Source: Chitinophagales bacterium (GTDB lineage Bacteria; Bacteroidota; Bacteroidia; Chitinophagales; JADIYW01). Taken from it: a stretch of DNA of 64,000 bases. Position 1 is the stretch's first letter, and each line of letters starts with the position of its first letter. The position numbers and the translations under genes are program-made. Under the pieces are notes generated by a model. The model saw only the letters and a program-made list of their open reading frames with translations. It did not search any database and was not told the DNA's origin. The DNA is taken from contig JAIBAX010000002.1 in assembly GCA_019694955.1 (NCBI GenBank), positions 62,001 through 126,000 of the forward strand, given 5' to 3'. This document shows positions 43,590 to 46,049 of the stretch, piece by piece.

Positions 43590-44645
43590 CTATTCTGAGT
43601 TATAGCTATTGCTTTTTAGTTTCCATTGTTTCTCTTTTACCTGCGCTTTTACTACTTCTATCACCTGATTTGCAACACCCGTAATCATGCTGACTTTTAT
43701 TCCTTCGCCATCTTTAGCATATAAAATACTGTGCATAACGGCAGTAGTAATTTCTTCGATTCCTCGCTTGTTTTTTGATTTTTCTAAGTCATCCATCATA
43801 TTATCGACCACATTAAAAGTAATATCGCTGATGGCATGGTCTAATGTGTTGGCAATTATTTTTCCTACGCCGGGTATGAGTTTAATGTTTTCAACTTCTC
43901 GGTTTTCTTTAACCGCTCTTGTGATGAGATCCTTAACGTATTGATGTAATTCTGTTTGATGCTGTGTATACGTCAATGTAATGGCGTTAGAAACGCGTTC
44001 ACTCAACCATTCCGAAATAATCTCACTTTTCGGCAATAGCACTTCCCGGGTAACTTTTTCTACAATGGGGTTTCCCGTTTGCATTTCGTCCTGAACGCCA
44101 TCTAAAACTTTTACCACTACCCTATCAGAGATTTCTTCGACGAAAATGTCTGTGTACTTTGCTACCTGCTTAAAGATAAATGTTTTGGTGATATCGATTA
44201 CGCCAAGCCTTTGTAAGCGATAAAACAAGCCAAAGACCCTCAAGAGTCTAAACAATCTGAATGTTCCATTTAAAGGGATGCAACCCAATACATCATACCA
44301 ATGAATGAACGGGTAATAAAACCACCTAAAATATGTTTTTTTATATATTGCCCATAACCACCTCAACAGTAACTCGGCAACAAACACGGATACAAAAATC
44401 AGGTCTATTAAGTTCGTATTGGGGTGTATATCGTGCTGATACCAGTTGTAAAATCCCGGGATAATTTTCTTCCAAAGTCCGGAAAAGAAATGCCAACTCC
44501 ATGCCCAGTCAAAGATAATGCCTCCTAAATTTATCGCTACGAGTAGCAACATAAAGAGATCGACGGCAATAATACTGGAGTTTTTACTTCTTCGTATCTT
44601 CTCTAAGTCAATTTTAAAAATTCTGTATAATTTACTTTTTCCCAT
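43590..44645 (-). CDS. Voltage-sensor-domain membrane protein without pore
   Basis: A 351-aa protein with four predicted membrane segments in the first 150 residues: S1 (25-48), S2 (79-100), S3 (107-123) and S4 (128-147). S2 has F88-V-A-E91, the FxxE charge-transfer motif; S3 has Asp118; S4 has arginines at 130, 133, 136 (every third residue) and at 143, 146. No pore helix, no TxGYG or similar filter and no further membrane segments follow. About 200 soluble residues, mostly helical with a VMHSILYAKDGEGIKV segment, take their place. It is the third gene of the scpB-rluB operon (2-bp gap). It could be a proton channel or a sensor; function not known. Confidence 0.75.
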   Translation of the reverse strand: MGKSKLYRIFKIDLEKIRRSKNSSIIAVDLFMLLLVAINLGGIIFDWAWSWHFFSGLWKKIIPGFYNWYQHDIHPNTNLIDLIFVSVFVAELLLRWLWAIYKKTYFRWFYYPFIHWYDVLGCIPLNGTFRLFRLLRVFGLFYRLQRLGVIDITKTFIFKQVAKYTDIFVEEISDRVVVKVLDGVQDEMQTGNPIVEKVTREVLLPKSEIISEWLSERVSNAITLTYTQHQTELHQYVKDLITRAVKENREVENIKLIPGVGKIIANTLDHAISDITFNVVDNMMDDLEKSKNKRGIEEITTAVMHSILYAKDGEGIKVSMITGVANQVIEVVKAQVKEKQWKLKSNSYNSE

Positions 44646-44647
44646 GC

Positions 44648-45496
44648 TTACGGCTGAGGTTTCCCTTTCTTATTATTGGCATTTTTTCCGGTGAAATATT
44701 TTAAGAAAACGATTTCTTTTTCTGTGAGGTTTCTGTACTTTCCTCTTGGAAGATCCTTTTTTGTCAACCCTGCGTAAGTGATTCTATCTAACTTAACTAC
44801 CTGATAGCCTAGATGTTCAAATATTCTTCTTACGATTCTATTCTTTCCAATATGTATTTGTATGCCAATGGTTCTTTTGTCACCACCTGAATATTCGACG
44901 GCATCAACGTTGGCGACGCCATCTTCGAGGGTGACTCCGGCACGTATTTTTTCTAAATCGGGTAGGGAAAGGTTTTTATCTAATTGAGCCTCATAGAGTT
45001 TCGGGATGGCGTTGCTGGGATGCGCTAAATTTTGCGCTAAATCGCCATCGTTTGTCAAGACCAGCAGTCCTGTAGTATTTCTATCTAATCTCCCTACCGG
45101 ATACAATCGGGTTCTATCTGCTTCTTTGATATAGTCTAATACCGTTTTTCTGCCTTTTTCATCTGAAGTGGTGGTAATGCAATCTTTAGGTTTGTTGAAA
45201 AGGATATATATCTTTTTATCGGAGACCACCTTTTTGCCATTGTGTTTAATGAGGTCTTTTGCAAATACTTTGTGTCCCATTTCGGTGACGACCACACCAT
45301 TAACGGTAATTTCTCCATTTTGTATCAGTTCGTCTGCTTTTCTTCTGGAGCATATTCCTGCATTGGAAATATATTTATTCAAACGAATGCCTTCATCCGG
45401 TTTAGGCTCGAACTTTTTTATAATGCTGCCGGGTTTCTCACGTGAAACCGGTTTGAATCCCGAGCTACTCGGTTTGTTGAATGTTTTCTTTTTCAC
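44648..45496 (-). CDS. Ribosomal large-subunit pseudouridine synthase (RluB type)
   Basis: A 282-aa RsuA/RluB/RluE-family enzyme. The N-terminus is a basic, Pro/Ser-rich extension (residues 1-35), then an S4 RNA-binding domain (RLNKYISNAGICSRRKADELI) and the catalytic domain with Asp138 in VGRLDRNTTGLL. It isomerises uridine in rRNA; RluB itself modifies 23S rRNA position 2605 in E. coli, but the assignment among paralogs is by overall resemblance. Start codon is GTG 45496, overlapping the scpB end by 32 bp. Confidence 0.9.
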   Translation of the reverse strand: MKKKTFNKPSSSGFKPVSREKPGSIIKKFEPKPDEGIRLNKYISNAGICSRRKADELIQNGEITVNGVVVTEMGHKVFAKDLIKHNGKKVVSDKKIYILFNKPKDCITTTSDEKGRKTVLDYIKEADRTRLYPVGRLDRNTTGLLVLTNDGDLAQNLAHPSNAIPKLYEAQLDKNLSLPDLEKIRAGVTLEDGVANVDAVEYSGGDKRTIGIQIHIGKNRIVRRIFEHLGYQVVKLDRITYAGLTKKDLPRGKYRNLTEKEIVFLKYFTGKNANNKKGKPQP

Positions 45497-46049
45497 CTAT
45501 TTGATTTTCAATTTCTTCAAACTCTTTTAATTTCGGGAGCTCTGTTATGTCGTTTATTCCGAAATAATCCATAAAGTATGCTGATGTTCCATAAAGTAGT
45601 GGTTTTCCGACTTCTTCACTTCTTCCTACGATTTCTACGAGTTCTTTTTCCATGAGTTTCTGGATAGTATAATCTGAATTTACGCCACGGATATGTTCCA
45701 CTTCGCCTTTTGAAACGGGTTGTTTATAGGCAATGATTGCCAATGTTTCCATTGCTGCAGTTGTGAGGCGCTTGTTTGCTTTGCGCTCTTGAAATTCCGC
45801 TACTATAAGGTGTAGGTCTGGTTTTGTCAGGAACTGATACCCGCCTCCTGTTTGGATGATTTCAAAGGGGTAATCTTGCGCCTGATACTTCTGGACGAGT
45901 TCATTGAGTATTATTTCTATGGTTTCTAATGTGAATGCCAAAGGATATAATTTCTCAAAAAAAACATACAAATCGTTGGCAGTTAGCGGTTGTGTGGAAG
46001 TAAAAACAAGTGCTTCCATTTGTAACCTTAGTGATTGTACTGTCATCAT
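45465..46049 (-). CDS. scpB: Segregation and condensation protein B
   Basis: A 194-aa kleisin-associated winged-helix protein that works with ScpA and SMC in chromosome condensation. Tandem winged helices are visible: residues about 5-75 (LEALVFTSTQPLTANDLYVFF) and about 80-165 (RLTTAAMETLAIIAYKQPVSKGEVEHIRGVNSDYTIQKLMEKELVEIVGR). scpA is not beside it. Two ATGs in tandem start it (46049 and 46046). A perfect TATTTTTG -7 box lies 4 nt before the first. Confidence 0.95.
   Translation of the reverse strand: MMTVQSLRLQMEALVFTSTQPLTANDLYVFFEKLYPLAFTLETIEIILNELVQKYQAQDYPFEIIQTGGGYQFLTKPDLHLIVAEFQERKANKRLTTAAMETLAIIAYKQPVSKGEVEHIRGVNSDYTIQKLMEKELVEIVGRSEEVGKPLLYGTSAYFMDYFGINDITELPKLKEFEEIENQIGEKENIQQTE

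Follow-up and report, generated by a model that had tools for sequence, protein, structure and literature searches.

The DNA analysed here, a window of 64,000 nucleotides from a Chitinophagales bacterium, encodes a protein in which a voltage-sensor domain (VSD) is followed by a cytosolic all-helical domain in place of a pore. It is one of a widely though patchily distributed bacterial family whose members lack a pore, conserve the charges of the sensor and carry a cytosolic domain without known relatives. That the window protein works as a free-standing bacterial voltage sensor, in which a putative action of S4 is exerted on the cytosolic domain rather than on a pore, is the likeliest reading, one that we hold to be evenly balanced.

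Gene, operon context and family distribution

The gene and its operon partners were located as follows.

43590..44645, minus strand: pore-less voltage-sensor-domain protein, whole gene, 351 aa, ATG start (open reading frame and translation, homologues)
44648..45496, minus strand: rluB-type pseudouridine synthase, operon partner upstream (Pfam PseudoU_synth_2 and an RNA-binding S4 domain)
45465..46049, minus strand: scpB, first gene of the operon, overlapping the start of rluB (Pfam SMC_ScpB, E=5.9e-51)

A preliminary description had placed an open reading frame at 43590-44645 within an scpB-rluB operon. The frame is found at exactly these coordinates, on the minus strand (which had not been given), the residue numbers assigned to F88, E91, D118, R130, R133 and R136 are all correct on the translation, and both operon partners are identified by Pfam. 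The gene order is scpB-rluB-VSD gene, with the VSD gene last and just 2 nt between the TAA stop of rluB and its ATG. Upstream of scpB, the minus strand has a terminator-like stem at 46122-46100, which sets the operon apart from the ATP synthase genes.

The gene product is the only family member in its own genome, where it is present in one copy. Within the same taxonomic family most genomes carry one copy, while copies are scattered across the order (17/61) and the phylum (13/395, one of them, L031, being a K+ channel), and a search with a larger alignment gave 8/274 in Gammaproteobacteria, of which two match weakly and only in part. A single-sequence scan of genome contigs returned no match. 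Scanning a single genome for each species yielded 389 candidate loci, the best 80 of which were fetched; these 80 come from Bacteroidota, Rhodothermota, Balneolota, Calditrichota, Spirochaetota, Pseudomonadota, Bdellovibrionota and others, with Alcanivorax, Marinobacter and Salinisphaera among the Pseudomonadota. Many family members come from marine or saline lineages. In Acinetobacter baumannii, a homologue with 29% identity lies between an acyltransferase gene and minCDE (L164:3920-4966, L165:3932-4978), and goes under the name of a hypothetical protein or, in error, of the preprotein translocase subunit SecA; no match to a SecA domain stands among the Pfam and NCBIfam families listed.

Phylogeny had been named as a check in the preliminary description. 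In a quick tree, the Pseudomonadota mostly group together and the remainder is only partly resolved, with good support for a clade of six members that have lost two of the S4 arginines (see below). No operon partner is conserved across clades: neighbours cluster within lineages only, and a close same-strand upstream gene is found at just 23/74 loci. At the Alcanivorax loci (L091-L110), a response-regulator-like gene lies directly downstream and is followed by a Ser/Thr-kinase-like gene, both recognised by eye from the sequence.

The voltage-sensor and cytosolic domains

An AlphaFold2 model of the window protein (mean pLDDT 85, and at least 93 across residues 31-120) places four segments in an order compatible with a voltage sensor, with no added pore domain, and these are followed by helices only.

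44499..44579, minus strand: S1 helix, residues 23-49 (AlphaFold2), with N39 and D46
44340..44459, minus strand: S2 helix, residues 63-102 (AlphaFold2), with outer acid D81, charge-transfer-centre aromatic F88 and inner acid E91
44283..44318, minus strand: short S3, residues 110-121 (AlphaFold2, two short helices, 110-114 and 116-121), with D118 within HWYDVLGCIP
44208..44264, minus strand: S4 helix, residues 128-146 (AlphaFold2), with R130, R133, R136, a small residue at 139, R143 and R146
43593..44180, minus strand: cytosolic all-helical domain, residues 156-351 (alignment; separate AlphaFold2 model, mean pLDDT 82)

The window protein matches Pfam Ion_trans at E=0.04, below the cut-off, and sub-threshold matches of this kind are found in 27/72 members, the best at 7.8e-4. 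Profile-profile comparisons were made with hhalign using residues 1-155, with E-values that are those of single comparisons. Against Ion_trans channels from related genomes the probability was 92.4% (11.8% for the reversed control and below 1% for shuffles). Against short-S3 K+ channels with a TVGYGD filter, in which S3 is unusually short just as it is in the window protein, it reached 96.7% (E=3.8e-10, 33% identity over S2-S4; reversed control 3.3%, column shuffles below 1%), a comparison that is partly selected, since the set contains L031, L167 and L168, which are weak outside matches of the family's own profile; L031 is itself a TVGYGD K+ channel. L132, which was found via Pfam Ion_trans, gave by itself 89.4% as against 1.9% reversed. 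A direct profile search of the PDB returned chance helical matches and no VSD, so that the case for a VSD stands on pairwise profiles, structure and conservation.

On the structural side, Foldseek alone gave no significant match for the VSD model. The best VIA-align match was the NavAb VSD (Z 8.6, rmsd 3.0 A, 97 residues), and NavAb, CavAb, HCN4, Kv2.1, GORK and similar VSDs fill the top rows, the rows listed all belonging to the voltage-gated-channel superfamily. Because a Z of about 8 is modest for helical bundles, the fold and the profiles have to be weighed jointly. Judged in this way, from profile homology and predicted structure, residues 23-146 are shown to be a true VSD, homologous to the VSD of short-S3 bacterial K+ channels.

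The pattern of conservation was followed through 72 aligned members. In S1, N39 is invariant (72/72) and an acid (D or E) occupies position 46 in 63/72, the N39-D46 spacing being 7 in every aligned member; the Asp-Glu spacing in S1 of human Hv1 (5oqk sequence) is also 7. D81 of S2 is present in 72/72, position 88 is F in 56 and Y in 16, and position 91 is E in 68 and D in 4, so the FxxE motif noticed in the window protein recurs as an aromatic and an acid in all 72. The spacing from D81 to E91 is 10 throughout, as is the S2 Asn-Glu spacing of the NavAb sequence aligned here. D118, the S3 acid that had been singled out, is likewise invariant (72/72), and is followed 9-12 residues later by R130. 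The arginines described at every third position of S4 are present in the window protein, and across the family positions 130, 133 and 136 are jointly basic (R/K) in 65/72, with R136 in 72/72. A further conserved basic residue, R or K at position 143, is found in all 72 members, while position 139, never basic, is S, A or G in all but three members, which have N or T. The two substitutions found in Acinetobacter, D81 to E and D118 to E, exchange acid for acid and keep the charge. Since these features are kept even where homologues share as little as about 30% identity, they go beyond chance. The most conserved regions are the linker between S2 and S3, on the cytosolic side, and the helix at the exit of S4. 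The loop charges (N-terminus +8/-2, S1-S2 loop +2/-1, S2-S3 loop +3/0) fit a predicted topology with both termini of the VSD in the cytosol.

The absence of a pore after S4, as first described, is borne out: S4 of the window protein is not followed by a pair of hydrophobic helices, the maximum 19-residue hydropathy past residue 155 being 1.05, and a GYGD-type selectivity filter is absent from all 72 homologues. With no filter in the 72 members and, in the window protein, no clear hydrophobic transmembrane helix past S4, we rejected identity as a voltage-gated K+, Na+ or Ca2+ channel. Positions 139 and 142 also tell the two groups apart, position 139 being R, K or Q in short-S3 K+ channels as against a small residue in the pore-less family, and position 142 being Arg in the channels and almost never basic in the family.

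The soluble part, described initially as about 200 helical residues, is all-helical in AlphaFold2 (residues 156-351). Its first long helix after S4 spans residues 156-189 and holds the invariant E170-E171 and the nearly invariant D174; P205, P258, G261 and W341 are also conserved. For this domain Foldseek gave no match at E<=0.001, VIA-align gave no convincing fold (Z below 8, rmsd mostly above 10 A) and there was no family match. An origin in DUF445 was considered and rejected: one member reached E=7.5e-4 in a genome search, but hhalign did not outperform its reversed controls, giving 6.6% as against 2.3% reversed, while the reversed profile rose to as much as 34.6% with one sequence. Nor is the effector a phosphatase, in line with the preliminary description. 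The only Cys in the whole window protein is C122, in S3, which makes a CX5R phosphatase motif impossible, and there is no Pfam phosphatase match; identity as a voltage-sensing phosphatase was thus rejected.

Possible modes of action

In a free-standing sensor, a change in membrane potential would drive R130, R133 and R136 through the field, past the charge-transfer centre formed by F88, E91 and D118. The motion of S4 would then pass through the long helix at 156-189, with E170-E171 and D174, to the helical domain, which might act on a partner or on the membrane. The arrangement would be comparable to that in voltage-sensing phosphatases, where a soluble effector is driven by the VSD. The membrane potential, or its loss, would in this way be read out in the cytosol, and the most conserved regions, the S4-exit helix and the S2-S3 linker, are where such coupling would occur. 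With three gating charges in S4, as compared with about five in the K+-channel relatives, and a short S3, the charge movement could be small.

The same two features, the short S3 and the three S4 charges, would also suit a VSD fold put to new use simply as a scaffold or to anchor the protein in the membrane. The charges would then stabilise the helix bundle, and the function would lie with the cytosolic domain and be insensitive to voltage. This reading gains from the well-supported clade of six (L036, L044, L045, L050, L053, L098; Chitinophagales-type), in which R130 and R133 are replaced by Asn and Gly/Ala while D81, E91, D118, R136 and R143 are all retained. Such losses imply that some members can do without strong voltage sensing. 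A mere anchor would, however, have no need of three basic residues at i, i+3 and i+6, and these are kept in 65/72 members over several phyla, leaving the anchor a tentative second choice. The clade of six, with its counter-charges intact, also offers a natural experiment on the role of the gating charges.

A different use of the charges would be to make the VSD itself a voltage-gated leak, with a native gating (omega) pore that passes protons or cations in the manner of Hv1. The S4 of the family reads R-x-x-R-x-x-R-x-x-[S/A/G], a pattern whose last position is R, K or Q in the K+-channel relatives, and it resembles the S4 of Hv1, in which three arginines are followed by Asn. The small residue at 139, as in Hv1 and in NavAb R3G, thus keeps a proton or cation leak among the candidates; a Gly is aligned with this residue in 6c1e, which matches best among PDB entries and is listed as a NavAb NormoPP mutant. 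In NavAb, R3G opens an omega pore (PMC13095418), and the small residue that follows three arginines in the family resembles this mutant. Against a leak, all 72 members have Asn39 where Hv1 has its selectivity Asp, D112, there is no sequence relation to Hv1, and the long conserved cytosolic domain is left unexplained. We therefore consider a leak improbable, and judge equally improbable its evolutionary form, a pore-less voltage-gated conductance that combines a cytosolic regulatory domain with an omega pore, the latter owed to a small residue where the fourth gating arginine would be, and that evolved from K+ channels on a line separate from eukaryotic Hv1.

Least probable, and very doubtful, is a regulatory role in which the protein docks as a subunit on a channel or transporter, making it sensitive to voltage: the VSD is of K+-channel type, channel VSDs pack against pore domains and the window protein's own genome has at least one partial Ion_trans match limited to the pore half (L137), but no channel or transporter is linked to the gene across clades.

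For the free-standing sensor, the simplest reading of its origin is that a K+-channel-type VSD shed its pore and became linked to a helical domain that serves as effector or scaffold. The data suggest that this loss of a pore and gain of a soluble domain took place in bacteria, from a K+-channel-like ancestor and separately from Hv1. As the family occurs in culturable genera (Alcanivorax, Marinobacter, Salinibacter), a bacterial sensor of membrane potential that is not a channel would be directly testable, and the family could supply a small VSD for biophysics.

Relation to known voltage-sensor proteins

According to a 2023 review, database searches have found every prokaryotic VSD to be accompanied by a pore domain (PMC10377628). 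We found no bacterial pore-less VSD in the literature, where our coverage of subscription journals and preprints is thin and an earlier description is possible. While eukaryotic pore-less VSD proteins are already known, a bacterial pore-less VSD family with such a cytosolic domain appears to have been undescribed so far.

By sequence, the VSD stands closest to short-S3 bacterial K+ channels and not to Hv1. These channels (L031, L132, L133, L167, L168; Pfam Ion_trans/Ion_trans_2 type), which have a TVGYGD filter, share with the pore-less family D-x9-E/D in S2, W-x-D-x(4)-IP in the short S3 and a first S4 Arg about 12 residues past the S3 Asp. They differ in having S5-pore-S6 and about five S4 charges, for which the pore-less family has neither, and instead a helical domain of ~200 residues. 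As a class, these channels carry the filter TVGYGD or TVGFGD and W-G-W-[IL]-D-L-x-x-x-IP in S3, and their S3 Asp and first S4 Arg lie only about 12-13 residues apart.

The preliminary description had drawn a parallel with Hv1 and voltage-sensing phosphatases, which holds for layout but not for sequence kinship. Like the family described here, Hv1 (HVCN1) consists of S1-S4 with F/Y-x-x-E in S2, an Asp in S3 and three S4 arginines three apart, and like Hv1 the family has no pore. When the two were compared, as had been proposed, hhalign gave a probability of 0.3% against HVCN1, no better than the reversed control. The S1 selectivity Asp (human D112) corresponds to N39 in 72/72 members, the register being fixed by the acid that comes next, 7 residues on, and the S4 Trp (RxWR) to position 132, which is L in 55, F in 15, V in 1 and A in 1; with both residues absent and no sequence match, we rejected membership in Hv1. 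The bacterial family further differs from Hv1 in its short S3 and large cytosolic domain, and Hv1 is known from eukaryotes only (PMC10377628).

The voltage-sensing phosphatases (Ci-VSP, TPTE) likewise have a cytosolic domain in the pore's place after the VSD, whereas that of the window protein is all-helical and without CX5R. TMEM266 is a pore-less VSD extended into helices, with no known conductance (PMC13095418). The window protein is like it in combining a pore-less VSD with a helical extension; TMEM266 differs in being vertebrate and Nav/Hv1-related, with an extension that is a coiled-coil dimerisation segment. Pore-less VSDs, as in Hv1, the voltage-sensing phosphatases and TMEM266, have been regarded as eukaryotic, and the family described here is a conserved bacterial exception.
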